From positions 124,001 to 188,000 of the forward strand of contig JADBKJ010000020.1 of NCBI GenBank assembly GCA_014896455.1: a DNA stretch of 64,000 nt, given 5' to 3'. The position numbers and the translations under genes are program-made. Source of the stretch: Thermoanaerobacter sp. GTDB lineage: Bacteria > Bacillota > Thermoanaerobacteria > Thermoanaerobacterales > Thermoanaerobacteraceae. The notes beneath the pieces are model-generated. The model worked only from the letters and a program-made list of their open reading frames with translations. It made no database searches and was not told where the DNA came from. Shown in pieces: positions 6,835 to 43,509 of the stretch; within the stretch, counting starts at the first letter, position 1, and each line of letters starts with the position of its first letter.

Positions 6835-7746
6835 GTGAACCAACATAGATTTCATATAGATGTCATTGGCAAAACGAAAATTTGGTTTGCGATATCAGGG
6901 ATTATGATTTTAATTGGCGTAATAGCTATGCTTGTAAATGGGTTTAATTGGGGAATAGATTTTACTGGCGGAACAATAATGGAGTTTAAAATTGGCAAAT
7001 CTTTTGATACGAATGATATAATTAAAATTTTAAACGAATATAAGGTTAAAGACTATCAAATACAAAAAATAGGGACAAAAGGTGATCATGTTTCAATAAA
7101 GACAAGTCCTATTTCCAATGAAACGCGGCTTTCAATAATAAAAGATATCGAAGAAAAATACAACTTAACAGAAAATGACTTAATAATGTCACAGCAAGTT
7201 GGGCCTTCTTTAGGAGCAGAGATAAAATTTGGGATGGTATTGGCACTGGTAGTAGCTTCTCTAGTAATGCTTACCTATTTAGGTTTTAGATTTAATTTTG
7301 AAATGAGCTTGGCAGCAGTTATTGGATTATTGCATAATGTGATAATATTAATTTCAATTTACGCTATTTTCAAAATAACAGTAGACTCGCCTTTTATAGC
7401 AGCTCTTTTGACAGTATTTAGTTATTCTCTTCACGATACTATTGTAATTTTTGACAGAATAAGAGATAATTTAAAAAGTATGAGAAGATCTGATTATGCA
7501 GAAATTGCGAATGTGAGTATAAACCAGACTCTTACACGATCGATAAACGTAGTTTTGACAGTATTGATCATGCTTGTCTTGATGTATTTCTTAGGGCCGA
7601 AGGCATTAAAAGATTTTGCATTGCCCCTACTTATTGGTATAACTTGGGGAGCGTATTCTTCAATATTTATTTCTACTCCTCTTTGGGTATTGATTAAAAA
7701 TAGAGAAAAGAGGAAAAAAATCTCTAATAAACCTGCAAAAGCTTAA
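6835..7746 (+). CDS. secF: Protein translocase subunit SecF
   Basis: The partner of SecD: 303 residues with a first helix, the NWGIDFTGGTIMEF motif, a small extracellular domain and five further helices including YSLHDTIVIFDRIRDN. The start is GTG behind AGGAGGGG. Bases 6833-6890, covering the start codon and first 18 codons, are repeated in inverted orientation and slightly decayed form at 19498-19555. Confidence 0.96.
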   Translation: MNQHRFHIDVIGKTKIWFAISGIMILIGVIAMLVNGFNWGIDFTGGTIMEFKIGKSFDTNDIIKILNEYKVKDYQIQKIGTKGDHVSIKTSPISNETRLSIIKDIEEKYNLTENDLIMSQQVGPSLGAEIKFGMVLALVVASLVMLTYLGFRFNFEMSLAAVIGLLHNVIILISIYAIFKITVDSPFIAALLTVFSYSLHDTIVIFDRIRDNLKSMRRSDYAEIANVSINQTLTRSINVVLTVLIMLVLMYFLGPKALKDFALPLLIGITWGAYSSIFISTPLWVLIKNREKRKKISNKPAKA

Positions 7747-19497: not shown

Positions 19498-19555
19498 GCA
19501 AACCAAATTTCGTTTTGCCAATGACATCTATATGAGTGTCTATGTTGGTTCGCTC
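19498..19555 (-). pseudogene. Inverted copy of the first 58 bases of the secF region
   Basis: The reverse strand here repeats bases 6833-6890, from two bases before the secF GTG through codon 18. An internal stretch of 26 bases (CATATAGATGTCATTGGC onward) is identical, and the rest differs by a short substitution, an inserted base and a deleted A, which break the reading frame. It lies between a 13-bp direct repeat (left) and a truncated repeat element (right). On the forward strand it is antisense to the secF translation start. Confidence 0.85.
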
Positions 19556-19561
19556 GGTGGC

Positions 19562-19769
19562 GGATGTTCCAAAGCGACAAAACTAAACTCGACTTTCGGG
19601 TTCCGGCAGGGTACCGGGCACAATCGACGTCCTGTCTCAGGTGCCCGCCTCCGCCCTCCTTGGCTTCGGCCCTGCCTCCACCCTCAGTCTCGCTAAGTTT
19701 TGTTACCGCTTTGTCACAAGTCGCTCCGATTGCAAAATATCTCCTTTGCGAAAGTTTGTCTACAGTCTG
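19562..19769 (+). mobile_element. Truncated copy of the CAGACTGTAGACAAA-ended repeat element
   Basis: From GATGTTCC to the terminal CTACAGTCTG this matches the elements at 33036-33297 (inverted) and 38918-39181, but the left terminal inverted repeat is missing and is replaced by the secF fragment. A 13-bp direct repeat, AAACATTGTAGCA, flanks the composite at 19488-19500 and 19776-19788. The right copy is part of a hairpin, ACATTGT-AGC-ACAATGT (19778-19794). Open frames inside it are by-products of its GC-rich composition. Confidence 0.8.
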
Positions 19770-24387: not shown

Positions 24388-25059
24388 ATGGCAGAATTAG
24401 TTATTACACTTGAAAATTTTGAACAAGAAGTTGTGAATTCAGATGTACCAGTCTTAATAGACTTTTGGGCTGAGTGGTGTATGCCTTGTAGAATGGTATC
24501 TCCAATAATTGACGAATTGGCGAAAGAATATGAAGGAAAAATCAAAGTAGGTAAAATTAATGTTGATGAAGAAAATGAATTAGCGATGAAATTTAGAATA
24601 ATGAGCATACCAACAATAGGGCTTTTCAAAAATGGCAAGATGGTAGATAAGATAATAGGAGCAAGACCTAAAGCAGACTTTGTAAAGTTTATAGAAAGAC
24701 ATCTCAATGGTGGTGCTACACAATCGGAAGAATCTGACGAGGTAGAAATTAGATACGATAATTTCGAAGAAGAAGTTGTAAACTCCGATGTACCAGTATT
24801 GATAGACTTTTGGGCTGAATGGTGTGCACCTTGTAGATTAGTTGCTCCCATAATAGATGAACTAGCAAAAGAGTATAAAGGGAAGATTAAAGTAGGGAAA
24901 GTTAATGTAGACGAAGAAAATGAGTTGGCAATGCAATTTAGAATAATGAGCATACCAACAATAGGGCTTTTCAAAAATGGCAAGATGGTAGATAAATTAA
25001 TAGGAGCAAGACCTAAAGCAGACTTTGTAAAGTTTATAGAAAAGCATTTAAACAATTAA
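24388..25059 (+). CDS. Tandem two-domain thioredoxin
   Basis: A 223-residue protein made of two complete thioredoxin folds, residues 1-107 and about 116-223, joined by a short acidic linker (SEESDEVE). Both have an intact WAEWC-x-PC active site (CMPC in the first, CAPC in the second), the cis-proline SIPTIG and the GARPKADFVKFIE ending. It should reduce disulfides in the cytoplasm; no signal peptide is present. The two halves share a 106-base block that differs at only two positions (24592-24697 and 24937-25042). GGAG precedes the ATG. Confidence 0.93.
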   Translation: MAELVITLENFEQEVVNSDVPVLIDFWAEWCMPCRMVSPIIDELAKEYEGKIKVGKINVDEENELAMKFRIMSIPTIGLFKNGKMVDKIIGARPKADFVKFIERHLNGGATQSEESDEVEIRYDNFEEEVVNSDVPVLIDFWAEWCAPCRLVAPIIDELAKEYKGKIKVGKVNVDEENELAMQFRIMSIPTIGLFKNGKMVDKLIGARPKADFVKFIEKHLNN

Positions 25060-31955: not shown

Positions 31956-33020
31956 GTGTATCCCTTGTTGAGAATAAACTTAGAAAAACTTCGAAAAAAT
32001 ACGCAAACTATCGTTAATTTGTGTGAAAAGAGAAATATAAAGGTAGTGGGTGTTACAAAAGTTTTTTGTGCTATTCCAGAAGTAGCACAGACGATGGTAA
32101 AGGGTGGAGTAGAAATCTTAGGAGATTCTCGAATCAAAAATTTAAAAAAATTACAACACATACCGGTACCTAAAATGCTTCTTCGAATTCCCATGAAAAG
32201 TGAAGTGGAAGAAGTTATAAAATATGCAGATATAAGCCTAAACTCAGAAATAGATATAATAAAAAGCCTATCAGAAGAGGCAAAAAAACAAAGGGAAATT
32301 CATGAAATAATCCTAATGGTAGACTTAGGGGATTTGAGAGAGGGCGTATTGAAAGAGGATGTTATTCCAATAGTAGAACAAATAGTAAAACTAGAAGGTA
32401 TAAAACTTCGAGGAATAGGTACTAATTTAACTTGTTATGGTTCGGTTATTCCTACGCCAGATATATTAGAAGAACTTGTGGAAATAAAAAATTCTATCAA
32501 CAAAAAATTCAACTTGAATTTAGATATAGTCTCAGGAGGAAACTCAAGCAGTCTGTACTTAGTTCAAAATGGTCTTATACCAAGAGGAATAACGCAACTT
32601 AGAATAGGAGAAGCTATTGTCTTAGGTAGGGAAACGGCTTTTGGAGACAGAATTCCCCATACTTATGACGATGTATTTACTTTAGAAGCACAGATAGTCG
32701 AATTAAAAGAAAAACCTTCTTATCCACGAGGTATATTGGGAATGGACGCTTTTGGAGAAAGACAAGTATATGTGGATAGAGGGATAATGAAAAGGGCAAT
32801 TTTGGCTGTAGGAAAACAGGATGTCAATATGAATGACCTAATTCCTGTAGACAGCTTTATTGAATTAATAGGTTCAAGCAGTGACCATTTAATTGTCAAT
32901 ATTACAAATTCTCAATATCCGTATAAGGTAGGAGATATAATAAAGTTCAAGCTGAGATATGGTGGGATTTTATCCTGCTCTACATCTGAATATGTAGAAA
33001 AAGTCATTGAAGAGGCGTAA
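31956..33020 (+). CDS. orr: Ornithine racemase (alanine-racemase-fold, PLP)
   Basis: Orr interconverts L- and D-ornithine, supplying substrate for OraS/OraE. The 354-residue protein has the fold-type III barrel start VVGVTKVFCAIPEVAQ with the PLP lysine, GDLREGVL, and the phosphate-binding VSGGNSSSLYLVQNG and LRIGEAI. The start is GTG behind GGGGGAG. Its last three codons and stop are included in the left direct repeat of the element inserted at 33036. Confidence 0.92.
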   Translation: MYPLLRINLEKLRKNTQTIVNLCEKRNIKVVGVTKVFCAIPEVAQTMVKGGVEILGDSRIKNLKKLQHIPVPKMLLRIPMKSEVEEVIKYADISLNSEIDIIKSLSEEAKKQREIHEIILMVDLGDLREGVLKEDVIPIVEQIVKLEGIKLRGIGTNLTCYGSVIPTPDILEELVEIKNSINKKFNLNLDIVSGGNSSSLYLVQNGLIPRGITQLRIGEAIVLGRETAFGDRIPHTYDDVFTLEAQIVELKEKPSYPRGILGMDAFGERQVYVDRGIMKRAILAVGKQDVNMNDLIPVDSFIELIGSSSDHLIVNITNSQYPYKVGDIIKFKLRYGGILSCSTSEYVEKVIEEA

Positions 33021-33322
33021 AAAATACGCTTCTTCAGACTGTAGACAAACTTTCGTAAAGGAGATATTTTGCAATCGGTGCGACTTGTGCAAAGCGGTAA
33101 CAAAACTTAGCGAGACTGAGGGTGGAGGCAGGGCCGAAGCCAAGGAGGGCGGAGGCGGGCACTAAGACAAGGATGTCGAATGTGCCCGGTACCCTGCCGG
33201 AGCCCGAAGGTCGAGCTTTAGTTTTGTCGCTTTGGAACATCGGAGCGACGATGCAAAATATCTCCTTTGAATATTTTTTAACTTTGTCAACAAACTGAAG
33301 AGGCGTAAAAAATACGCCTCTT
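33011..33322 (-). mobile_element. CAGACTGTAGACAAA-ended element (262 bp) with 25-bp duplication of a terminator
   Basis: The element runs 33036-33297, starting CAGACTGTAGACAAAC and ending GTCAACAAACTG. Both ends share the inverted 18-mer TAAAGGAGATATTTTGCA or a close form, and the arms stay partly complementary to the centre. It is flanked by 25-bp direct repeats (33011-33035 and 33298-33322) with one mismatch. Each repeat is a complete hairpin, AAGAGGCGTA...TACGCCTCTT, the right one followed by TTTTTG. Orientation is opposite to the copy at 38918. No coding capacity is credible; the GC-rich open frames are conserved only because the copies are similar. Confidence 0.88.
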
Positions 33323-33396
33323 TTTGTATTATGAAAAACATTAATTTACTGTTATAATAAAAATAAAAGGGAATAATATTTTTGGGAGGTTTTAGT

Positions 33397-33697
33397 GTGA
33401 TAATAGGGTTAGGCCATGTAGCCTACAAAGTTAAAGACCTTGATGAAAGTTTAGAATTTTACTGTGGCTAATTGGGACTAAGATGAAAGGATAGGGTTTA
33501 AACATTTGTGTCTACGTGTAGATGATATTTTTGCTACATTAGAAGAACTAAGAAAGAGGGGCTTGGAAATAAAGGGGCAGCCTATGATGGGGGCAGATGG
33601 AAATTATCAATATTGGATAGAAGACCCTGATGGAAATAGAATAGAACTAATGCAAATAATGCCGGGTTCTTTGCAAGATAAAGCAAAAGAATTATAG
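33397..33697 (+). pseudogene. Internally deleted VOC/glyoxalase-family gene (methylmalonyl-CoA epimerase or lactoylglutathione-lyase-like)
   Basis: A good ribosome site (GGGAGG) and GTG begin GLGHVAYKVKDLDESLEFYC, then a stop at 33469-33471. The C-terminal half continues in another frame: GFKHLCLRVDDIFATLEEL, then GNYQYWIEDPDGNRIELMQ. Intact VOC proteins have about 45 more residues between these parts, so a deletion plus frameshift has removed the first metal-ligand neighbourhood and the centre. It is non-functional as read. Confidence 0.82.
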
Positions 33698-33708
33698 AAA
33701 ATTAAGTG

Positions 33709-33737
33709 TTGACAACCACTTTTTTAAGTGGTATTCT
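33709..33737 (+). promoter_or_regulatory. Promoter of the Rrf2 gene with dyad operator in the spacer
   Basis: TTGACA (33709-33714) and TATTCT (33732-33737) are 17 bases apart. The spacer is a perfect inverted repeat, ACCACTT at 33715-33721 and AAGTGGT at 33726-33732, as expected for autoregulation by an Rrf2 dimer. Confidence 0.72.
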
Positions 33738-33785
33738 TTTTGTTGAAATCCGGGTAAAATAGTAGGGATTCAGAGGTGGATAATC

Positions 33786-34235
33786 GTGAAACTATCTACA
33801 AAAGGTCGATATGGGATACAAGCTATGTTTGAATTAGCCCTTTACTATGGGGAGGGCCCGATTTCTTTAAAAACTATAGCAGAAAATGAGGGACTTTCTG
33901 AGCATTATTTAGAACAGCTTATAGCAATCCTTAGAAAAGCTGACCTTGTGAAAAGTGTCAGAGGAGCACAGGGAGGATATATGCTAGCAGCTCCTCCTGA
34001 TAAGATAACCGTTGGAGATGTGATAAGAACATTGGAAGGATCACTGGCTCCTGCAGATTGCGTTTTGGAAGATACTCCTTTTGAGTGCAGCAGAGCAGGA
34101 GGTTGTCCGACGAAGTTGGTGATGGAAAGAATAAGAGACAGTATAAATAAAGTGATAGACTCTATTACTTTACAGGATATGGTGGAGGATTACAGGCGAT
34201 TAAATCAAAAAAGTGCTTTTATGTATTACATTTAG
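33786..34235 (+). CDS. Rrf2-family transcriptional regulator (IscR/CymR group)
   Basis: A 149-residue winged-helix regulator starting KLSTKGRYGIQAMFELALYY, with the family helix-turn-helix EGLSEHYLEQLIAILRKA and wing GAQGGYML. Three cysteines, Cys at PADC, FECS and GGCP, match the Fe-S ligand pattern of IscR-type proteins, so it may sense cluster status. The start is GTG behind AGGTGG. In relatives this gene precedes nifS and mnmA; here only an mnmA remnant remains downstream. Confidence 0.88.
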   Translation: MKLSTKGRYGIQAMFELALYYGEGPISLKTIAENEGLSEHYLEQLIAILRKADLVKSVRGAQGGYMLAAPPDKITVGDVIRTLEGSLAPADCVLEDTPFECSRAGGCPTKLVMERIRDSINKVIDSITLQDMVEDYRRLNQKSAFMYYI

Positions 34236-34281
34236 GGAAAAAATAATTTTAGGCCTTTTAATAGAGGATTTTATATATAAT

Positions 34282-34505
34282 ATGGAGATAAACAATATAG
34301 TAGCAATTGGAATGAGTGGAGGAGTAGAGAGCTCTGTAGCTGCATATCTTTTAAAGTGGATATAGATGTGAAAAACAATGTGGTTGTTGTTGGACAAGGA
34401 TAAAATATTAGTAAAATTTTTAAAACCTCAAAGAGCTATAACTCCAGGACAATCAGTTGTCTTTTACGATAAAGAGTAGTAGGAGGAATAATTGAAAAAA
34501 TGTGA
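34282..34505 (+). pseudogene. mnmA: Remnant of mnmA (tRNA-specific 2-thiouridylase)
   Basis: The first 25 codons, NNIVAIGMSGGVESSVAAYL, match the MnmA PP-loop start, normally SGGVDSSVA. After a stop at 34363-34365, two short blocks from the extreme C-terminus follow: DVKNNVVVVGQG and VKFLKPQRAITPGQSVVFYD, then VVGGIIEKM in a shifted frame. About 280 central residues are missing, including the catalytic cysteines. The order start-then-end shows one large internal deletion followed by decay. Confidence 0.85.
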
Positions 34506-34510
34506 GATAG

Positions 34511-34535
34511 TGCACACAAAAAGTGTGCATTTTTT
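34511..34535 (+). terminator. Intrinsic terminator after the mnmA remnant
   Basis: TGCACAC and GTGTGCA form a 7-bp stem with a 5-base A loop, followed by T6. It starts six bases after the remnant's stop, so the original operon end is preserved. Confidence 0.85.
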
Positions 34536-34596
34536 ATTTTAAAGAGGGAAATCTATAAAAAGCAGAAACTTTTTTAGATTTCAAAGGAGGGCTTTT

Positions 34597-34758
34597 ATGA
34601 ATAGAGACAAATATATAAAGGGATTTTTGGCAGGAATAGTAACTGCTGCATATATAATTCCCAAAATAGATATGAGAAAATATAGACGTTATAAAAATAT
34701 GATAGAAAAAAATATGACAAAAATATGGCGTGCAATGAACAAAATAAAAATTAGATAG
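34597..34758 (+). CDS. Small protein of unknown function (53 residues)
   Basis: A strong AAAGGAGGG site precedes an ATG opening a 53-codon frame. The protein has one hydrophobic stretch (about residues 9-22, GFLAGIVTAAYIIP) followed by a strongly basic helix rich in Lys, Arg and Met. It resembles YtxH-like or other single-pass membrane-associated small proteins but I do not recognise a family. It ends 17 bases before the AI-2E-type permease. Confidence 0.65.
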   Translation: MNRDKYIKGFLAGIVTAAYIIPKIDMRKYRRYKNMIEKNMTKIWRAMNKIKIR

Positions 34759-34775
34759 ATTTTTCAGGTGATAAA

Positions 34776-35801
34776 ATGCAAGTTAAAAAAGTGTATCTAC
34801 TTTTTTTAATCATTGGTGCCATAGGCTTATTGTATTTTTTTATAAAGAATTGGGTGAGTATTAAAAATATACTTTCCCCTTTTTTTGTTTCCGCTTTAAT
34901 AGCCTATTTATTAAATCCAATGGTAAAATTTTTTAATTCAAAGGGCTTTTCTACTTTTTTGTCCGTTCTTCTAATATTTTTAATTGTTGCATTGGTAATA
35001 CTATTTTTTTCTTTTTACATTCTCCCCTTGTTGATAAATGAAATAGTTATTTTTGTGAAAATGATACCTTTCTATACTGAAGAACTACAAAAAATTTTGA
35101 TTCAACTAAAATTTAACTATTTTTCTTATTTGCCACCTCAATTTGAAAAAGTTTTAGATAAAAATTTGAATGTCCTAAATAATCTTTTTGTCTCTCGTGT
35201 CGATTTGGTTTTTAAATCTACTGCTGCAATATTAAAAGATCTTGTAGACGTGATAATTGTACCGATTATTACTTTTTATCTTTTAAAAGATAAAAATGTA
35301 TTTGAAAAAGAAATTGAAAGAATGATTCCTTCCAAATATCATGATAGTTTTTTTGCTCTTTTAAAAAAAATAGACAAAATTTTAAGTAAATACATAAGAG
35401 CACAAATATATCTTTCTATTTTTGTTGCTATTTTTACAAGTATAGGCCTTTCTCTAATTAAAGTTAAATATGCTTTTTTAATAGGAATATTGGCAGGAAT
35501 ATTAAATATAATTCCCTACATAGGGCCTATTTTATCAATTATTCCTGCTGTTTTAATAGGGCTCCTTGATTCTTTATCTAAAGGCTTTTGGGCTTTACTT
35601 GTGTGTCTTTTAGTGCAACAGATAGAAAATGCCTTTATAACACCTAAAATAATTAGCGACAGTGTAGGGCTTCATCCTATTACAGTGATTTTTTCACTGA
35701 TTGCAGGAGAGGAACTTTTTGGCCTCTGGGGGCTTTTATTATCTGTGCCTGTTGTAGCAATAGGGAAAGTTATTGTAACAGAAATTTTTATTGAGAAATA
35801 A
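34776..35801 (+). CDS. AI-2E-type (YrrI/PerM) membrane transporter
   Basis: A 341-residue permease with about eight transmembrane helices, grouped at residues 5-80, 145-175 and 205-335, and the conserved [20 protein letters not shown] and [20 protein letters not shown] regions. This group is called the autoinducer-2 exporter family, though most members have unproven substrates. In Firmicutes it sits directly before alaS (yrrI in B. subtilis), as here. Confidence 0.88.
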
Positions 35802-35809
35802 ACCAGTTA

Positions 35810-35888
35810 TTGACTTGTTATATTCAATCTTGTATAATATACTCAAAAAAGAGCGGGTAAAAGCCCGTCCCCAATTTGGGACGGTTTT
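35810..35888 (+). promoter_or_regulatory. alaS promoter and short leader with competing hairpins
   Basis: TTGACT (35810-35815) and TATAAT (35833-35838) are 17 bases apart, so transcription should start near 35845. The leader at once forms either a small stem (CGGG 35854-35857 with CCCG 35864-35867) or a terminator (CCGTCCC 35865-35871 with GGGACGG 35878-35884, then T4). The two share bases 35865-35867, so they exclude each other. No T-box motif is present. Attenuation of alaS is an inference. Confidence 0.7.
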
Positions 35889-35913
35889 TATTGTATCAAA
35901 AAGGAGGATTTTT

Positions 35914-38547
35914 ATGGAAAAACTCGGGATGAACGAAATTAGAGAAAAATTTTTAAGCTTTTTTGAAAGCAAAGGGCATCTCAGACTACCAAGTTTTTCT
36001 CTAATTCCTAAAAATGATAAAAGTTTATTATTAATTAATTCTGGAATGGCTCCTTTAAAACCCTATTTTACAGGAAAAGAAATCCCCCCCAGTAAACGAG
36101 TAACTACTTGCCAAAGATGTATAAGGACACCGGATATTGAAAGAGTGGGTAAAACAGCACGTCACGGTACTTTTTTTGAAATGTTGGGTAACTTTTCTTT
36201 TGGTGATTATTTCAAAAAAGAAGCTATTCCATGGGCCTGGGAATTTGTAACAGAAATTTTGAAGTTGCCAGTTGACAGGTTATGGGTATCAATTTATGAG
36301 GAAGACGATGAAGCATTTGAGATTTGGAATAAAATAGTTGGGTTACCTCCTGAAAGAATTGTAAGGATGGGAAAAGAAGATAATTTCTGGGAGATTGGCA
36401 CAGGACCTTGTGGTCCCTCTTCAGAGATTTATTTTGACAGAGGTGAAGAAAAAGGCTGTGGGAAGCCTACATGTGGAGTTGGCTGTGATTGCGATAGATT
36501 TATTGAATTCTGGAATTTAGTTTTTACCCAGTTTAATAAAGACGAACGAGGAAATTATCACAGATTGCCAAATCCAAATATTGATACAGGCATGGGACTT
36601 GAGAGGATAGCGACAATAATGCAGGGAGTCGACAGTATATTTGATGTAGATGTAATAATGGGCATAACTAATATGGTATCTAAGATTGCGGAAGTAGAGT
36701 ATGGAAAAGATGCAGAAAAGGATGTGTCTTTGAGAGTTATCACTGACCATATAAGAGGGATAACTTTCATGATATCAGATGGAATTCTGCCTTCTAATGA
36801 AGGAAGAGGATATGTTCTGAGAAGGCTTTTAAGAAGGGCTGCAAGGCACGGCAAATTGCTGGGGATAAACGATACCTTCTTGTATAAAGTGGTTGATTCA
36901 GTCATAGAAAATTATGGAGAGGCATATCCTGAAATAATTGAGAGAAAGGACTATATAAAGCAAATAATCAAACTGGAAGAAGAAAGATTTAAGGAGACAA
37001 TAGACCAAGGACTTACAATTTTACAAGATTATATAAGCGAACTAAAAGTAAAAGGAAAAACCGCATTAGAAGGTTCTAAAGCTTTTAAACTATACGATAC
37101 CTATGGGTTCCCATTGGATTTAACAAAAGAAATTTTGCAAGAAGCTGGCATTACTGTTGATGAAGAAGGATATACAAAGGAGTTAGAGAAACAAAGGATA
37201 AGAGCGAGAAGCAGCAGAAAAGAAGATAATAGTTTGTGGGAACAAGACATATATTCTACTTTAGGAGATATTAAAACAAAATTTGTGGGATATGATACTT
37301 ATGAAAGCGATTCAAAAGTTTTAGCTATTGTAAAAGATGAAGAGCTTGTTGAGGAAGCAGAAGCTGGAGATGATGTGAGTATCATATTAGATGTTACTCC
37401 TTTTTATGCTGAAAGTGGTGGGCAGATAGGAGACAAAGGAATTTTAGAGAATGAAAATGCTTTGATAAAAGTAAATGACTGTAAAAAAATAGGAGATAAG
37501 TTTATACACACTGGGACAATTGAAAGAGGCTTAATTTCAGTAGGAGATGAAGTAAAAGCTCAAATTGATGTGGTAAGTCGAAGGAATGCTGCAAGAAACC
37601 ACACTGCAACTCATCTTCTTCATAAAGCTCTAAAGGAGATTTTAGGCGACCATGTTCATCAAGCTGGTTCCCTTGTGGCTGATGACCGATTAAGATTTGA
37701 TTTTTCACATTATCAAGCGGTGACTAAAGAAGAGCTGAAGCAAATAGAATATAGGGTTAATGAAAAGATATACCAAAGTTTAAATGTTCATATTGAAGAA
37801 AAAACTTATGATGAAGCAGTGAAAGAAGGGGCTGTTGCGTTATTTACAGAAAAGTATGGTGATAAAGTAAGGGTTGTAAAAATTGATGATTACAGCATGG
37901 AACTTTGTGGTGGAACTCATGTTAAAAATACTAACGAAATAGGGATTTTTAAGATTGTATCTGAGAATGCAGTTGGTGCAGGTTTAAGAAGAATTGAAGC
38001 TTTAACAGGACTTGCTGCAATAGAATATTTAGGAGAGAAAGAAGAAATATTAGAAGAGGCCTCTGATTTATTAAAAGTCCAAGATAGAGAGATAATTTCA
38101 AAAGTTGAGAATTTACAGCAAGTTTTAAAAACAAAAGATAAAGAGATAGAACAATTAAAAATAAAAATGGCGTCTGTTTTGGCTGATAGTTTAATCAATT
38201 CTGCTATTTTATTAGATGGTATAAAAGTAGTGGTTTCAAAGGTTGAAGATTATGATATTGAGGCTTTGAAGGCATTGGGAGATATTTTAAAAGATAAATT
38301 AAAAACTGCTGCAGTAGTATTAGCATCTTCTACCCCAGAAAAAGCTATATTTGTCGGTATGACTACTAAAGATGTTGTTCAAAAAGGGATAGACATGGGA
38401 GCTATTATTAAAGAGGTGTGCAAAGTATCCGAAGGAAATGGCGGTGGAAGACCAGACATGGCTCAAGGAACAGGCAAAAATCTCTCTAAGGTAGATGAAG
38501 CGTTAAACAAAGCGATAGATATTGTAAAAGAACAGTTAAAAAATTGA
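35914..38547 (+). CDS. alaS: Alanyl-tRNA synthetase
   Basis: An 877-residue class II synthetase. It has the catalytic core ([18 protein letters not shown] start, [13 protein letters not shown], and [17 protein letters not shown]), the editing domain with [16 protein letters not shown] and CGGTHVKN, and the C-terminal oligomerisation domain ending [14 protein letters not shown]. The ATG at 35914 is preceded by AAGGAGG. An upstream in-frame extension from 35791 runs through the leader terminator and is rejected. Confidence 0.97.
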
Positions 38548-38554
38548 GAAAAGC

Positions 38555-38584
38555 TTGACTAGCCAAGTAAATATAGGTTATTAT
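38555..38584 (+). promoter_or_regulatory. Sigma-A promoter for ireB
   Basis: TTGACT (38555-38560) and TATTAT (38579-38584) are 18 bases apart, shortly after the alaS stop. Confidence 0.65.
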
Positions 38585-38621
38585 AAAGTTGATGGTAGTT
38601 AAATGTATCTAGAGGTGATAT

Positions 38622-38882
38622 ATGATGGTAAATAAAAACGAACAGACTTTGAGGTATCACGTTACAACTGATAGAAAAACTGTTAAAGAGATATTGACAG
38701 CAGTGTATGAAGCACTTTCTGAAAAAGGTTATAATCCAATTAATCAAATAGTAGGTTATATATTGTCTGGGGACCCTACTTATATAACCAGCCATAAAAA
38801 TGCGAGAAATTTGATAAGAAAGATTGAAAGAGATGAATTAGTAGAAGAACTTTTGAGAGAGTATTTGTCTTCCCAAAAATAA
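38622..38882 (+). CDS. ireB: IreB-family regulatory protein (DUF965, UPF0297)
   Basis: An 86-residue protein with [44 protein letters not shown] and [13 protein letters not shown] spread over its length, matching IreB/YrzL. In Enterococcus, IreB is phosphorylated by the PASTA kinase IreK and affects cephalosporin resistance. The order alaS-ireB-yqgF-DUF1292 is conserved in Firmicutes. An ATG three bases further (38625) is also possible. The element at 38918 lies in the terminator behind it. Confidence 0.92.
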
Positions 38883-38892
38883 GAAAAATGAA

Positions 38893-39206
38893 ATTGCCTC
38901 ACTTTGTGTGAGGCAATCAGTTTGTTGACAAAGTTAAAAAATATTTAAAGGAGATATTTTGCATCGTCGCTCCGATGTTCCAAAGCGACAAAACTAAGCT
39001 CGACCTTCAGGTTCCGGCAGGGTACCGGGCACAATCGGCCTCCTTGCCTCAGGTGCCCGCCTCCGCCCTCCTTGGCTTCGGCCCTGCCTCCACCCTCGGT
39101 CTTGCTAAGTTTTGTTACCGCTTTGTCACAAGTCGCACCGATTGCAAAATATCTCCTTTACGAAAGTTTGTCTACAGTCTGATTGCCTCACTTTGTGTGA
39201 GGCAAT
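38893..39206 (+). mobile_element. CAGACTGTAGACAAA-ended element (264 bp) with exact 25-bp duplication of a terminator
   Basis: The element runs 38918-39181, from CAGTTTGTTGACAAAG to CTACAGTCTG. Its left half and the complement of its right half share the 18-mer TAAAGGAGATATTTTGCA and further blocks (AAAGCG, ACAAAACT, AGC), so the whole sequence can fold back. It is flanked by identical 25-bp repeats (38893-38917, 39182-39206). Each is a perfect hairpin, ATTGCCTCAC and GTGAGGCAAT with a 5-base loop, and the right one is followed by TTTTAG. This is the clearest case of insertion at a terminator with its duplication. Confidence 0.92.
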
Positions 39207-39226
39207 TTTAGAATGGAGAGGTTTCT

Positions 39227-39646
39227 TTGAGGATTATGGGTTTAGATGTGGGGGATAAAACAATCGGGGTGGCTATAAGTGACTTATCAGGTACAATTGC
39301 ACAGGGACTTACTACTATTAAAAGAAGTAGTAACAAAAAAGACTTTGAGAGAATAAAACAAATAATAAATGAATATGAAGTGGGTATGATAATTGTAGGA
39401 TTACCTAAGAATATGAGTGGGACTTTGGGACCACAAGGACAAAAAGTTGTGAGATTTGTTGAACACTTGAAGGAAGCTATTAATATACCAATAATTTTGT
39501 GGGATGAAAGGCTTACTACAGTAGAAGCGGAGAGAGTTTTAATAGAAAAGGCTGATATAAGTAGGGCAAAGAGAAAAGAAGTAATTGATAAGCTGGCTGC
39601 AGTTCTTATACTTCAGAACTACTTAGATTCACAAAAAAATAAATAA
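39227..39646 (+). CDS. yqgF: Putative pre-16S rRNA nuclease / Holliday-junction resolvase-like protein YqgF (RuvX)
   Basis: A 139-residue RNase H-fold nuclease-like protein with [16 protein letters not shown] at the N-terminus, the [14 protein letters not shown] loop, [13 protein letters not shown] and a final Asp in [15 protein letters not shown]. In E. coli the homologue trims the 5' end of 16S rRNA. The start is TTG behind GGAGAGG. The gene is separated from ireB by the inserted element, whose right terminator copy ends 20 bases upstream. Confidence 0.92.
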
Positions 39647-39661
39647 ATTTTTATTAAAAAC

Positions 39662-39690
39662 TTGACAGTCTTTTTGGTATGTTATACAAT
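39662..39690 (+). promoter_or_regulatory. Sigma-A promoter for the DUF1292 gene
   Basis: TTGACA (39662-39667) and TACAAT (39685-39690) are 17 bases apart, 36 bases before the start codon. Confidence 0.65.
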
Positions 39691-39725
39691 TACATTATCT
39701 TGAAGTAGAATTGAGGTGAAATAGT

Positions 39726-40013
39726 ATGGAACCAGAAATCATTCAGCTAATCGACGAGCACGGCCATGAAATAGACTTCGAACTTGTAGCATCATTTGAC
39801 CTTGACGATACCAGGTATGCAGTTGTGGTCCCTGTCGATGGTGATGGAGGAGATGCTTACATCCTGAGAGTGGAACAAGATGAAAATGGCAACGATATTT
39901 TTGTAGGGATCGAAGATGAAGATGAGTTCAATGATGCTGTCGAAGCATACAATGAGCTGATGGAAGAGTATGAGGAATATTATGATGATGAAGATTTTGA
40001 CGATAAAAAGTAA
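39726..40013 (+). CDS. DUF1292 (YrzB-like) acidic protein
   Basis: A 95-residue very acidic protein with IIQLIDEHGHEIDFELVASF, YAVVVPVDGDGGDAYILRVEQDE in parts, and a C-terminal run of Glu/Asp/Tyr residues. It belongs to the DUF1292 family, found after yqgF in many Firmicutes; its function is unknown. The GC-richer codon use in the first third is within normal range. Confidence 0.9.
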   Translation: MEPEIIQLIDEHGHEIDFELVASFDLDDTRYAVVVPVDGDGGDAYILRVEQDENGNDIFVGIEDEDEFNDAVEAYNELMEEYEEYYDDEDFDDKK

Positions 40014-40035
40014 ATTAAAATTAGAATGAAATTAA

Positions 40036-40066
40036 TTAAGATATACCGTTTTGGTATATCTTAATT
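40036..40066 (+). terminator. Intrinsic terminator after the DUF1292 gene
   Basis: TTAAGATATACC and GGTATATCTTAA form a 12-bp perfect stem with a 5-base loop, followed by TTTT. Confidence 0.82.
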
Positions 40067-40174
40067 TTATATACCCACAAAATTTAATTTCTATGTAAAA
40101 GAGAAATTGGATTCTCAATTGAAATATCTCTGTCCACTAAAATTTAATATTTGCTAAAAATCGAAAAGAATATT

Positions 40175-40203
40175 TGACAATTGAAAATGAATATCATAAA
40201 CTA
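40175..40203 (+). promoter_or_regulatory. fur-type promoter with a Fur box in the spacer
   Basis: TTGACA (40175-40180) and TAACTA (40198-40203) are 17 bases apart. TGAAAATGAATATCA at 40183-40197 fits the 7-1-7 Fur box TGATAATNATTATCA at 13 of 14 or nearly all fixed positions, depending on the two central mismatches, and fills the spacer. Autoregulation by the following gene is likely. Confidence 0.7.
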
Positions 40204-40235
40204 GTATTAGTTGATATTATTTGGCGGTGATTTAG

Positions 40236-40676
40236 ATGAATGAAATTGAAAAATTTAAAGAAAAATTAAAAGATAAAGGATACAAGTTGACAACTCAAAG
40301 GCGCGTGATATTGGACGTCATTACGGAAAATAGGGATAAACATCTTTCCTCTGAGGAAATATATGACCTTGTAAGGCTAAAATATCCTGAAATAGGGCTT
40401 GCTACAGTATATAGGACCCTTCAGTTATTTGAGGAATTAGGTATTGTTTATAAATTAAATTTTGACGATGGTAGAAATAGATACGAGCTATATCATAATG
40501 AAAACCATCAGCATCATCATTTGATTTGTTTAAAATGCGGAGCAGTTATAGAAATGGAAGGAGACCTTTTGGAGAATTTAGAAGAGGCAATAGAAGAGAC
40601 TAAAGATTTTGAAATAATAGATCATAATGTGAAATTTTTTGGTTATTGTAGCAAATGTAGGAGCAGGTATAATTAA
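40236..40676 (+). CDS. fur: Fur-family metalloregulator
   Basis: A 146-residue regulator with the winged helix KLTTQRRVILDVITEN and ATVYRTLQLFEELGIV, the metal-sensing histidine cluster HQHHHLICLKC and two CxxC zinc motifs (CLKC near residue 99, CSKC near 139). The presence of a Fur box in its promoter favours Fur over PerR or Zur, but the family members are hard to separate by sequence alone. GGCGGTGA precedes the ATG. Confidence 0.87.
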   Translation: MNEIEKFKEKLKDKGYKLTTQRRVILDVITENRDKHLSSEEIYDLVRLKYPEIGLATVYRTLQLFEELGIVYKLNFDDGRNRYELYHNENHQHHHLICLKCGAVIEMEGDLLENLEEAIEETKDFEIIDHNVKFFGYCSKCRSRYN

Positions 40677-40728
40677 ACTCATAGTGAGATTTTGGATTTT
40701 GTTTAAGAAATAATTTACATTAATAGGG

Positions 40729-40757
40729 TTGAAGTATTTTTTCAAATAAAGTATAAT
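40729..40757 (+). promoter_or_regulatory. Sigma-A promoter for the RNase J gene
   Basis: TTGAAG (40729-40734) and TATAAT (40752-40757) are 17 bases apart, leaving a leader of about 80 bases without other recognisable structure. Confidence 0.65.
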
Positions 40758-40847
40758 TTATATTAACTGGTGTAAGGTACGGGTAAGTTTTTTGGGTTTT
40801 TGTGGGAAAATAAAAGCTAAAAATATCTAATGAAAGGAGATAAGTAT

Positions 40848-42512
40848 TTGGCACACAAGGCAAAACTTAAAATCATTCCTTTGGGCGGGTTAAATGAGAT
40901 CGGCAAAAACATGACTGTTTTTGAATTCGGAAACGACATTATAGTTGTGGATTGCGGTCTCGCTTTTCCAGATGATGAAATGTTGGGAATAGATTTGGTC
41001 ATTCCCGACATTACTTATTTATTGAAAAATAGGGAAAAGGTTAAGGCAATTGTTTTAACACATGGTCATGAAGACCATATTGGAGCTTTACCATATGTTT
41101 TAAAGCAACTTAATGTTCCCGTATACGGGACTCGTCTGACTATAGGCTTAGTAGAATATAAGTTAAAAGAGCATGGTATTTTAAAAGATAGTAAATTGAT
41201 AACGGTGAAGACAAGAGAGATTGTCGAAATTGGTCAGTTTAAAGTGGAGTTTATAAGAACCTCTCATAGCATTGCAGATTCTGCGGCTTTAGCTATTCAT
41301 ACTCCTGTTGGGACGGTTTTCCACTCGGGAGATTTCAAAGTAGACTTTACCCCTATAGGGGGAGAAATACCAGACTTACACCGCTTTGCCCAGTTAGGGG
41401 AAAAAGGGGTACTAGTAATGCTATGTGATAGTACCAATATTGAAAGACCGGGTTATACCATGTCAGAAAGGACAGTGGGAGAGACTTTTGACAGTATATT
41501 TAGAAAAGCAGAACAACGAATCATAGTGGCAACTTTTGCTTCTAACATCCACAGAGTTCAACAAATTATAGATTCTGCGCACAAGTATGGAAGAAAGGTT
41601 GCTATTTCAGGCAGAAGCATGTTAAATGTAGTTAATGTAGCGATGGAATTAGGCTATTTAATTGTTCCTGATGGCCTTTTGATTGACATTGATGAAGCCA
41701 ATAAATTGCCTCATGATAAAGTTGTCATTATAACGACAGGCAGCCAAGGGGAACCCATGTCAGCTCTTACTAGAATGGCTTCTTCTGAGCATAAAAAAGT
41801 AGAGATTGTACCGGGAGATACAGTAATAATTTCTGCTTCTGCTATTCCAGGAAATGAAAAACTTATTTCTCGCGTCATCAACCAATTATTTAAAAAAGGT
41901 GCCAATGTAATTTATGAAGCATTGGCAGATATTCACGTATCGGGTCACGCCTGTCAAGAAGAGATTAAGTTACTTCATACACTAATAAAACCTAAATTCT
42001 TCATTCCTGTTCATGGAGAATACAGACATTTAGTTCAGCATGCTAAGCTTGCAGAGACTTTAGGAATGCCTCCACAAAATATCTTTGTGGTAGATAATGG
42101 GACAGTATTAGAGTTTACAAAAAATTCCGGAAGGATTGCAGGAACAGTAACAGCAGGGAAAGTGTTGGTAGATGGCTTGGGAGTTGGAGATGTAGGTAAT
42201 ATCGTTTTAAGAGATAGAAAACATTTGGCTCAAGATGGCTTGTTAGTAGTGGTGGTTACTATTTCTAAAGAGACTGGAGGAATTATAGCTGGCCCCGACA
42301 TAATTTCCAGAGGATTTGTATATGTGAGAGAATCAGAGGATTTAATGGAGGAATCCAAAAATATTGTCAGAGATGTATTATCAAAGTGTGAGAAAGAGGA
42401 AGTTAGTGAATGGGCTACTATAAAATCAATGATAAAAGACAATTTAAGCAGTTTCTTATATGAAAAAACTAAGAGAAATCCTATGATATTGCCAATCATA
42501 ATGGAAATTTAA
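40848..42512 (+). CDS. rnj: Ribonuclease J
   Basis: A 554-residue metallo-beta-lactamase/beta-CASP nuclease for RNA decay and processing (5' exonuclease and endonuclease). It has the metal site LTHGHEDHIGALPY, HSGDFKVD, the beta-CASP region with FASNIHRVQQI, TTGSQGEP and DIHVSGHACQEE. I prefer the TTG at 40848 because AAAGGAGATA lies eight bases upstream; the ATG at 40830 would place that site inside the gene. Family members start close to this position. Confidence 0.94.
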   Translation: MAHKAKLKIIPLGGLNEIGKNMTVFEFGNDIIVVDCGLAFPDDEMLGIDLVIPDITYLLKNREKVKAIVLTHGHEDHIGALPYVLKQLNVPVYGTRLTIGLVEYKLKEHGILKDSKLITVKTREIVEIGQFKVEFIRTSHSIADSAALAIHTPVGTVFHSGDFKVDFTPIGGEIPDLHRFAQLGEKGVLVMLCDSTNIERPGYTMSERTVGETFDSIFRKAEQRIIVATFASNIHRVQQIIDSAHKYGRKVAISGRSMLNVVNVAMELGYLIVPDGLLIDIDEANKLPHDKVVIITTGSQGEPMSALTRMASSEHKKVEIVPGDTVIISASAIPGNEKLISRVINQLFKKGANVIYEALADIHVSGHACQEEIKLLHTLIKPKFFIPVHGEYRHLVQHAKLAETLGMPPQNIFVVDNGTVLEFTKNSGRIAGTVTAGKVLVDGLGVGDVGNIVLRDRKHLAQDGLLVVVVTISKETGGIIAGPDIISRGFVYVRESEDLMEESKNIVRDVLSKCEKEEVSEWATIKSMIKDNLSSFLYEKTKRNPMILPIIMEI

Positions 42513-42526
42513 CCAGGAGGTTCTTA

Positions 42527-42862
42527 ATGATGAACGTATATGACAAAGCTTATGAACTGGCTAATGCCATAAGACAGTTGCCAGAATACAAAGCTTTTAA
42601 AGAGGCGTATCAAAAAATAAATGAAAATGAGCAAAATAAGAAAATGTTAGAGGATTTTAGAAAAAAGCAATTAGAGATTAAAGCTAAAGAGTTGTCAGGT
42701 GAAAAAGTGGATCCTAAAGAAAAAGAAATATTAGAAAAGCTATGGGAGATATTAAATCTTAATCCAGAGTTAAGTTCGTACTTGTCTTTAGAATACACCC
42801 TTGGCAAGATAATGGATGATATACTAAAAATAATCATGGAACCGATGGAGGTGAATAGATGA
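42527..42862 (+). CDS. YlbF/YmcA-family protein
   Basis: A 111-residue helical protein with VYDKAYELANAIRQLPEYKAF split at its start, typical of the YlbF/YmcA (Com_YlbF) family. In Bacillus these proteins form the Y-complex that acts with RNase Y in mRNA processing and biofilm and competence development. Its place after an RNase J gene fits an RNA-turnover role. GGAGG precedes two adjacent ATG codons (42527, 42530). It overlaps queT by four bases. Confidence 0.87.
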   Translation: MMNVYDKAYELANAIRQLPEYKAFKEAYQKINENEQNKKMLEDFRKKQLEIKAKELSGEKVDPKEKEILEKLWEILNLNPELSSYLSLEYTLGKIMDDILKIIMEPMEVNR

Positions 42863-43329
42863 AAAGAATAAATACTAAGTACATTGTAAAAGCAGGAGCC
42901 ATTGCAGCTATTTACTTTGTTGTTACTATTCTTTTGGGCAGTGTTTCTTATGGCCCTATTCAATTTAGAATATCCGAAGCTTTAGTTGTATTACCCATGG
43001 TAGAGCCGGCAGCAATATGGGGGGTTTTTATAGGATGTTTATTAGCCAATATAGGAAGTCCTTTTGGACTTATCGATATTTTAGGTGGAAGTTTAGTGAC
43101 ATTACTTGCTGCGTACCTTACATCAAAAACCAAAACTTTTTACAAAGGCATATTGCCTCCTATAATACTAAATGCTCTTATTGTTTCAATATGGGTAAGT
43201 TATTTTACGAAAATGCCCTATTATCTTGTAGCTTTGTATATCGCTTTAAGTGAAGCTATTGTGACAGGTGTATTTGGGTATGTAGTGATTGCAGCATACA
43301 AAAGATTAAAAGATAAGTATTCTTTATAA
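42859..43329 (+). CDS. queT: QueT-family queuosine-precursor transporter
   Basis: A 156-residue membrane protein with five or six helices and the family signature GPIQFRISEALVVLPMVEP, then GCLLANIGSPFGLIDILGGS. QueT is the substrate-binding S component of an ECF transporter for queuosine precursors. With queA and tgt in the window, the cell can both import and insert the modification. No preQ1 riboswitch is visible upstream. The gene overlaps ylbF, and a repeat element lies directly after it. Confidence 0.88.
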   Translation: MKRINTKYIVKAGAIAAIYFVVTILLGSVSYGPIQFRISEALVVLPMVEPAAIWGVFIGCLLANIGSPFGLIDILGGSLVTLLAAYLTSKTKTFYKGILPPIILNALIVSIWVSYFTKMPYYLVALYIALSEAIVTGVFGYVVIAAYKRLKDKYSL

Positions 43330-43333
43330 AAAC

Positions 43334-43509
43334 AGGTAAGCTGAAGGCTTACTTTAGACTGTAGGCAAGCCTTTTATATAACATGTTGGCATTTTGCATA
43401 AGTGTAGCGACTTGATAGTTTAGTCTGCGATATCACCGGAGCAAACGATGCAAAATGCCAACAACGATAATACTTTGTCTACAGTCTGAGGTAAACGGAA
43501 GGCTTACTT
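43334..43509 (+). mobile_element. Short (134 bp) element of the same family with a 21-bp duplication of a terminator
   Basis: The element runs 43355-43488, from TAGACTGTAGGCAAG to CTTTGTCTACAGTCTG, so its right end matches the longer copies while the middle differs. Inside, TGTTGGCATTTTGCAT and its exact complement form an inner inverted repeat. The flanks, 43334-43354 and 43489-43509, are 21-bp direct repeats with two mismatches. They are copies of the queT terminator stem, and only the right one keeps its TTTTT tail. Confidence 0.85.

Follow-up and report, generated by a model that had tools for sequence, protein, structure and literature searches.

Miniature Thermoanaerobacter elements with IS1182-type ends appear to insert at terminator hairpins and to duplicate the whole hairpin

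Introduction

A target-site duplication is usually a signature of the transposase and of fixed length. Group IIC introns, which are retroelements, insert beside terminator hairpins and are not known to duplicate the target; the elements described here resemble them in terminator-adjacent insertion and differ from them in the presence of a target duplication. Within the IS1182 family some members reportedly target palindromes (PMC4923244, citing Siguier 2015), and IS1272/TnSha1 of staphylococci targets terminator hairpins by structure and not by sequence, the hairpin being deleted or replaced without any duplication (PMC4923244, PMC5678879), whereas other members, namely ISCaa15 (PMC3196728) and ISPse1 (PMC3281130), are flanked by 4-bp repeats. 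An IS1182-like element of T. kivui has been implicated in the megatransposon TnCO-1, and the same paper mentions that ISfinder lists a closely related element from Caldanaerobacter; according to its authors, target duplication may or may not accompany insertion of IS1182-related elements, which may read DNA structure (PMC12056078). Its main text contains none of the terms 'hairpin', 'palindrom', 'direct repeat' and 'target site', and the available portion of that paper describes no hairpin target of the T. kivui element.

The elements analysed here share terminator hairpins as a target with IS1272/TnSha1, but the hairpin is duplicated here and deleted there. Their putative parent IS resembles the IS1182 family in its single ORF, its length of ~1.57 kb and its short terminal inverted repeats, and differs in a dyad-symmetric duplication of variable length that comprises the complete hairpin. 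Palindrome targeting by the family is already known; what appears to be new is duplication of the whole hairpin, of which no description was found in the literature searched, as far as its available text extends, and which has been drawn only as a possible pathway (pathway b in Fig. 13 of Wan et al. 2017, hypothetical there; PMC5678879). The available portion of the description of KolobokP (PMC9587614) has no bearing on hairpin duplication.

Results and discussion

The window, that is the whole 64,000-nucleotide stretch of Thermoanaerobacter DNA analysed here, contains three elements between direct repeats and a fourth, incomplete copy (Table 1). All three elements that the preliminary description had reported are present with the ends given there, although element 1 starts at 33035 and not at 33036. 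The flanking repeats of 25, 25 and 21 bp are likewise as described (24 of 25 positions are identical at element 1), each being palindromic and situated just downstream of orr, ireB or queT, and in all three cases a T-run follows the right copy only. The first two genes were named by NCBIfam and queT, for which there was no NCBIfam match, by Pfam. Element 3, a short relative, lacks most of the RNA core discussed below, as judged by eye. Eight sites resembling CAGACTGTAGACAAA at up to three mismatches occur in the window compared with 1.75 expected, a number reached in none of 100 shuffles, and 97 sites occur genome-wide at zero or one mismatch compared with none for the reversed control.

Table 1. 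Coordinates of the elements, their flanking hairpins and the internal features in the window
Feature	Position	Strand	Remarks
MITE copy 1	33035..33297	+	263 bp; ends CAGACTGTAGACAAA and CAGTTTGTTGACAAA; left end on +
orr terminator hairpin, left copy	33010..33034	+	25 bp; single copy in relative G002
orr terminator hairpin, right copy	33298..33322	+	T-run retained
MITE copy 2	38918..39181	-	264 bp; orientation opposite to that of element 1
ireB terminator hairpin, left copy	38893..38917	+	25 bp; single in G003 and G005
ireB terminator hairpin, right copy	39182..39206	+	identical to left copy, 25/25
Element 3, short relative	43355..43488	.	134 bp; same ends as MITE
queT terminator hairpin, left copy	43334..43354	+	21 bp; single in G002, G003 and G006
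queT terminator hairpin, right copy	43489..43509	+	19/21 identical to left copy
Fourth MITE copy	19563..19769	-	right end missing
Structured-RNA core	33080..33268	+	homologous to RNA of sister genus
GGA-loop hairpin 1 of RNA core	33139..33150	+	from alignment
GGA-loop hairpin 2 of RNA core (GAC AAGGAT GTC)	33166..33177	+	from alignment
-35-like TAGACA inside left end	33042..33047	+	17 bp from TATTTT at 33065-33070

The elements are members of a large non-autonomous Thermoanaerobacter family, for which a whole-genome search and searches of related genomes gave 68 BLAST matches in the source genome and 13-45 in each of nine congeners. They are short, encode no transposase, have inverted ends in common with an autonomous IS and are accompanied by a target duplication, as is typical of MITEs. 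A full-length IS with the shared ends exists as well, and it belongs to IS1182, one of the families that the preliminary description had half guessed. This candidate parent carries the same 15-bp ends as the MITEs, its terminal inverted repeats CAGACTGTTGACAAA and CAGTTTGTTGACAAA being identical at 13 of 15 positions, and it is intact in relatives and decayed in the source genome. Its transposase scores 496.3 bits against the NCBIfam IS1182 model NF033551 (cut-off 270) and contains the Pfam DDE and DUF772 domains (PF13751, PF01609, PF05598), and its target is palindromic, as in some IS1182 members. An AlphaFold model of the transposase (pLDDT 46.5) was too poor and was not used.

The same clade of IS is found in other lineages, where hairpin repeats of 23 bp (L257), 23 bp (L259, the ends of which were corrected after the automatic search) and 16 bp (L270) flank its members. 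Automatic end-finding over 48 loci (L248-L295), several of which are already-seen or partial copies, detected hairpin repeats at L257, at L267 (a G004 copy) and at L270. Good inverted repeats were obtained in L271, L279 and L285, accompanied by no direct repeat, one of 4 bp and one of 6 bp, respectively; in the remaining loci no convincing end pair was found. The IS copy of G004 at 1841581-1843146 is situated within the duplicated region, ~1.6 kb from its reported start at 1839957 (PMC12056078), and, partly from these coordinates, the IS of T. kivui TnCO-1 is probably the one seen here.

Orthologous sites in relatives carry one hairpin where the element is absent and two where it is present. 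A single-hairpin empty site was found in at least one relative at seven of the nine source-genome sites examined, the other two yielding no usable empty site. The preliminary description had named two hairpins without the element as the result that would speak against it; among contiguous matches spanning a site there was none, partial or split matches from some relatives being counted as uninformative. A wider screen of 102 sites against the collected loci gave only four matches, and the match of L170 with L183 was judged spurious. At two loci the same terminator has received two different insertions, a MITE here and a full-length IS in G003, and the orr terminator is occupied in G003 by a MITE of opposite orientation.

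These empty sites bear on a replacement of the IS1272 type, in which the target hairpin would be removed without duplication and the flanking hairpins would be pre-existing or of other origin. IS1272, of the same family, does this (PMC4923244, PMC5678879), and other IS1182 subgroups in the class (G020, G028, G030, G001) lack a duplicated hairpin as judged by eye; however, the change from one hairpin at empty sites to two at occupied sites refutes it for this clade, for which we consider it extremely improbable. An RNA-level or intron-like insertion beside terminators, after the manner of group IIC introns, was rejected as having practically no likelihood: although group II introns in these genomes adjoin the same kind of hairpin, the present elements have inverted repeats, a parent with a DDE transposase and a target duplication, and no Rfam match of any family (E<=1) was obtained at L089, the locus of element 1.

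Gap-filling chimeras are suspected in the draft source assembly, and the statistics were therefore taken from four closed relatives. There, 44 of 50 MITEs (the best-scoring 50 of 148) and 15 of 17 full-length ISs are flanked on both sides by the same hairpin, the remaining six MITEs and two ISs being without a clear hairpin repeat; one IS, L121, has a match of only 6 bp, with a terminator ~20 bp away. The preliminary description had also counted copies without a duplicated hairpin against its claim, and such copies do exist, both among these closed-genome MITEs and in the draft assembly, where 36 of 76 full-size end pairs have no repeat. Of these draft cases, eight are the inner ends of longer composites whose outer ends do carry the repeat, and 17, a set overlapping these eight, resemble gap-filling chimeras. 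Fourteen element sequences are identical, 12 of them without repeats, and identical elements share an identical outer flank of varying length (62-75 bp, and 83-95 bp in a few pairs), which points to draft-assembly chimeras among the repeat-less copies. This reading replaced an earlier one, in which such copies were taken as counter-examples or nested insertions.

It is also in the draft genome that one hairpin sequence recurs near many copies (it flanks just one side of 17 of the 36 repeat-less pairs), as might be expected if one flanking hairpin belonged to the mobile unit itself. The recurring hairpin is, however, accompanied by the identical outer flank and by identical elements, as gap filling would give, while hairpins otherwise vary by site and are single where the element is absent. 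A co-mobile hairpin is accordingly very improbable and was rejected.

Further evidence for duplication of the target comes from the symmetry of the repeats. At 54 sites selected for possessing a repeat, the centre of the repeat coincides exactly with the dyad centre in 47 and falls within half a base of it in 50, whereas only 6.6% of random stretches (n=1080) fall within one base. In 45 of 50 cases the repeat ends 1-4 nt beyond the outermost G-C pair, and its length ranges from 17 to 33 bp without helical phasing. A gene points into the hairpin at 49 of 51 intergenic sites, within 100 bp at 48 of them. The sequences show that, in by far the most well-preserved copies, insertion duplicated an entire palindromic hairpin, which is almost always the intrinsic terminator of a gene, and that the duplicated segment is symmetric about the dyad axis, with a length that follows the hairpin and not a fixed stagger. 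The main claim of the preliminary description, that the family inserts at terminator hairpins and duplicates them whole, is borne out by the empty sites, the closed-genome counts and the dyad symmetry together.

It is likely that the MITEs are moved in trans by the IS1182-family DDE transposase and that the terminator hairpin is duplicated through attack at the foot of an extruded structure, either a hairpin or a cruciform. The IS of this transposase has the same ends and the same target behaviour as the MITEs; against mobilization in trans stands the fact that the sequence common to both amounts to about 15 bp only. The transposase would recognize the foot of the extruded structure, a four-way junction, and would join the two transposon 3' ends to the two 5' feet of the hairpin, and fill-in of the hairpin strands would then leave one hairpin on each side of the element. 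Attack at both 5' feet would make the target duplication exactly the hairpin. Another possibility is that the transposase reads sequence, its two subunits binding inverted half-sites (an AT-rich tail and a G/C stem base) on duplex DNA and cutting outside them without extrusion. The composition of the repeat boundaries would suit such a dimer, with A at the first two inner positions (38 and 40 of 54) and T at the last two (44 and 43 of 54), and a flexible dimer could also yield symmetric cuts; we nevertheless regard it as unlikely, given the variation in repeat length without helical phasing and the stem sequences, which vary among sites while their arms remain mutually complementary.

The interior of the MITE may descend from a structured RNA that hitch-hikes on the IS ends. 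In the alignment of the RNA core 98.6% of cells are paired and 11 pairs are altered on both sides, and the conserved fold includes two hairpins with GGA-containing loops, in which, as in its branched form, the core resembles the TwoAYGGAY RNA (table entries in the available portions of PMC2864571 and PMC11701678). It differs from TwoAYGGAY in forming the body of a transposable element and in its score, the matches to Rfam RF01731 being weak (34.6-40.6 bits) and below the gathering score of 43. Among 20 further loci, three gave a match at E<=0.1, with a best score of 40.1; the window copy gave no match at E<=1, and ctpA-like genes of Thermoanaerobacter (eight loci, six genomes) were not accompanied by the RNA. 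The two GGA loops suggest, in part by comparison with known motifs, that the core RNA may bind CsrA; a CsrA-family gene is present in 20 of 20 genomes searched, and the literature search found no paper connecting CsrA with TwoAYGGAY. The TAGACA/TATTTT pair, shared at the same positions by 79 of 95 distinct copies, is a possible promoter of the core RNA, again partly on the basis of known motifs. A more far-reaching reading, offered tentatively and with considerable doubt, is that this IS1182 clade reads DNA shape, attacking a four-way junction at both 5' feet, and that one of its passengers is a transposing CsrA-sponge RNA gene with a promoter in the left end, for which a host terminator is copied at each landing.

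Conclusions

In this clade, the length of the target duplication appears to be set by the secondary structure of the target, and the dozens of natural sites, together with a compact IS, allow structure-directed transposition to be put to a direct test. One family would thereby show two opposite outcomes at the same kind of target, namely deletion of the hairpin by IS1272 and its duplication by the present clade. The genome seems to tolerate about 70 insertions with little damage, because the insertions lie downstream of genes and leave a terminator in place. Should the cargo RNA bind CsrA, the family would represent a mobile element that amplifies a sponge for a global regulator.

The window elements and their parent

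All three short non-autonomous elements with inverted ends (MITEs) of the preliminary description were found where it had placed them, except that element 1 starts at 33035 rather than 33036. The lengths of 25, 25 and 21 bp given there for the flanking repeats were recovered, with 24, 25 and 19 identical positions. The upstream genes are likewise as proposed: the ornithine racemase gene orr and ireB were identified by NCBIfam, and queT, upstream of element 3, is supported by Pfam. In the draft genome holding the window (2.22 Mb in 33 contigs), 97 left-type ends (reversed control pattern: 0) and 94 right-type ends occur at 0–1 mismatch, and element 1 has 68 BLAST matches there and 13–45 in each of nine other Thermoanaerobacter genomes (G002–G010).

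Further repeats in the window (window coordinates)
Feature	Position	Remark
Truncated fourth MITE copy	19563-19769	
36-bp inverted repeat pair	6852-6887 / 19500-19535	Where the fourth MITE copy would have its right end
Direct repeats of 300 nt	24398-24697 and 24743-25042	86% identical

The search suggested in the preliminary description for a full-length IS sharing the MITE ends led to five IS1182-family copies of about 1566 bp in the closed genome G004, with ends CAGACTGTTGACAAA and CAGTTTGTTGACAAA and a 500 aa transposase of the IS1182 family. At E ≤ 1e-20 the window's own genome holds a single decayed copy with stops, and no copy was found in G010; both contain more distant IS1182-type matches, under the family cut-off. 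In a tree of 12 transposases, which is small and carries a long-branch warning, the CAGACTG-end clade lies apart from the GGGGCTGTCC-end and other subgroups. Beyond the genus, the CAGACTG-end clade includes L257 (Bacilli MAG), L259 (Erysipelotrichaceae MAG) and L270 (another family of the same order), with hairpin repeats of 23, 23 and 16 bp, respectively. No duplicated hairpin was seen by eye in copies from other IS1182 subgroups (four aligned copies each: G001, G020, G028 and G030).

Duplication of the terminator hairpin

Copies without a duplicated hairpin, which by the preliminary description would refute its reading, do exist. Among 76 full-size (225–285 bp) left–right end pairs scored in the draft genome, a hairpin repeat of at least 16 bp is present in 40 and missing from 36. 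Eight of the pairs lacking it represent the inner ends in longer composites (319–430 bp), whose outer ends carry a matched repeat of 19–25 bp, and in 17 of the 36 one particular hairpin stands on a single side only. An identical element sequence occurs 14 times, 12 of them without a repeat; its outer flanks are identical over 62–75 bp in most pairs and 83–95 bp in a few, with divergence beginning at different points. The shared hairpin and identical flanks fit draft gap filling. The recurring element with its right hairpin and 62–95 bp of flank is found at many loci (for example C30:36242, with counterparts at C2:25117, C4:66295, C13:48496 and others), and these are suspected to be draft-assembly chimeras. 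The other 19 pairs have differing hairpins, or none, on the two sides or are inner composite ends; for these, ectopic recombination and assembly error are both possible. Because of the gap-filling-like pattern and these mixed pairs, the closed genomes G002–G005 were used.

The closed-genome sample consisted of the best-scoring 50 of 148 MITE matches and 17 full-length ISs, with the partial IS loci L219 and L220 left out of the count. Hairpin repeats of at least 17 bp were detected by script in 41 of these best 50 MITEs and in 11 of the 17 ISs. A group II intron hides one end in six G002 copies (two MITEs, four ISs), which show the same hairpin on both sides once read across the intron, and in the MITE L187 the repeat is present by eye with an indel. 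Including these copies, the hairpin repeat is found in 44 of the 50 MITEs (best 50 of 148) and 15 of the 17 ISs. The MITEs outside this count are L168 and L203, in which the repeat is partial by eye, L176 (unmatched), L208 (both ends lost), L211 (adjoining another element) and a second copy in L170 that was left unscored by the script; the ISs without a clear repeat are L121 and L124.

The G002 intron, about 0.66 kb and too short to encode a reverse transcriptase, lies in the inverted repeat of the four ISs and two MITEs (L198, L199, L200, L212, L183 and L189) in the order hairpin, CAG(A/T)(C/T)TG, intron, TTGACAAA, and it seems to target the duplicated hairpin together with the IS end. Other short elements in G004 (L135, L136 and L138) have similar ends, but BLAST relates them neither to the 263-bp MITE nor to the IS; they are flanked by hairpins or hairpin arms, which differ between the two sides in L138.

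Comparison with empty orthologous sites, also suggested earlier, revealed single-hairpin sites at all three window loci. At ireB, alignment across the single hairpin is ungapped in G002, G003, G005, G006 and G009 and gapped in G004, G007 and G008 (the last at 69%), G010 is occupied, and the hairpin sequence is identical between empty and occupied sites. The queT site aligns ungapped in G002, G003 and G006 and gapped in G004, G005, G007, G008 and G009, and is split in G010. The orr site is ungapped in G002, gapped in G005 and G006, split by inserted sequence in G003, G007 and G010, and only partially matched in G004 and G009; the G003 terminator carries a MITE in the orientation opposite to that of the window element. 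Four of six further sites of the draft genome have a single-hairpin match in at least one relative (best matches ungapped for C14:55892 and C13:43769, with 2–7 gap positions for C14:51651 and C13:42166), and no usable ortholog was obtained for the other two. The terminators occupied by MITEs at C14:55892 and C13:43769 hold full-length ISs in G003 (L216 and L214, respectively).

Geometry and mechanism

Geometry was analysed at 54 repeat-bearing sites, namely 11 ISs and 43 MITEs, two of which do not belong to the 50 above; as the sites were preselected for a repeat, the test concerns its symmetry and not its presence. The repeat centre coincides with the best-dyad centre at 47 sites and lies within half a base of it at 50, compared with 6.6% of random stretches of the same loci within one base (n = 1080). 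One of the remaining four sites is off by one base, and at three the finder picked a neighbouring dyad. Repeat length ranges from 17 to 33 bp (mean 24) without helical phasing, and the boundary lies 1–4 nt beyond the outermost G–C pair at 45 of the 50 centred sites; the cuts therefore track the G–C-anchored hairpin. The correlation of repeat length with the longest paired stretch is only moderate (0.49), because A–T pairs may extend beyond the repeat. According to a crude ORF caller, 51 of the 54 sites are intergenic and three are ORF-internal; a gene points into the hairpin at 49 of the 51, at most 100 bp away at 48, and two sites are divergent. No clear orientation bias relative to the T-run was seen in this set.

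The target is the hairpin, which is duplicated whole by symmetric cuts positioned by the hairpin itself, and the IS and MITE share this behaviour. Mechanistically, the target hairpin would be extruded, the transposase would recognize the junction of the extruded hairpin, and subsequent fill-in would yield the duplication, with the MITE presumably mobilized in trans.

Cargo RNA

MITE positions ~46–234 align at 73–81% with a single place per genome in six sister-genus genomes; a seventh gives a short match, and two of the nine searched give none. In the two loci read, this place is flanked by S41 peptidase and glycerate kinase genes (HMM families for L100 only). L098, L100 and their relatives carry a conserved TwoAYGGAY-like RNA with one match per genome, which may represent a small RNA gene missing from the annotation. 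Weak matches to Rfam TwoAYGGAY come from the sister sequences and a subset of the MITEs (40.6 and 39.2 bits, with 40.1, 36.3 and 34.6 bits in three of 20 loci), every one falling below the gathering score of 43, and the window copy gave no match at E ≤ 1. In an alignment of 36 sequences (31 distinct), the 54 predicted base pairs are formed in 98.6% of cells, versus 30–46% in slid controls. Two-sided changes affect 11 pairs versus 7.7 in shuffles (11 reached by three of 500), and the number of pair types is not above that in shuffles; many paired changes divide the two genera and may therefore represent few events. Hairpin 1 displays GGA in all 87 copies parsed by script (of 95 distinct). Hairpin 2 was parsed in 67 of 95 with a pattern itself requiring GGA, so that conservation there rests on the alignment, in which its GGA is nearly invariant. 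CsrA binds GGA loops, and each of the 20 searched genomes of this family has a CsrA-family gene. A promoter-like TAGACA-17-TATTTT occurs in the left end of 79 of 95 distinct copies. The cargo RNA may be transcribed and bound by CsrA.

Relation to known IS1182-family elements

IS1272, also of the IS1182 family, is likewise directed to terminator hairpins but eliminates them and makes no duplication (PMC4923244, PMC5678879), whereas the IS and MITE described here duplicate the whole hairpin. Whole-hairpin duplication was sketched as a possible pathway by Wan et al. in Fig. 13 b (PMC5678879). Among the papers listed in a literature search thin on subscription journals, none was devoted, judging by title and abstract, to hairpin-duplicating IS1182 elements. 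The T. kivui megatransposon has been linked to an IS1182-like element, with part of its excision termed elusive, and according to the same paper relatives of IS1182 may duplicate their target or recognize a DNA structure (PMC12056078); 'hairpin', 'palindrom', 'direct repeat' and 'target site' do not occur in the main text of that paper. G004 is probably T. kivui, and its IS copy L123 (G004:1841581-1843146) lies near the reported start of the megatransposon TnCO-1. The hairpin target of L123 may bear on the unexplained TnCO-1 junction.
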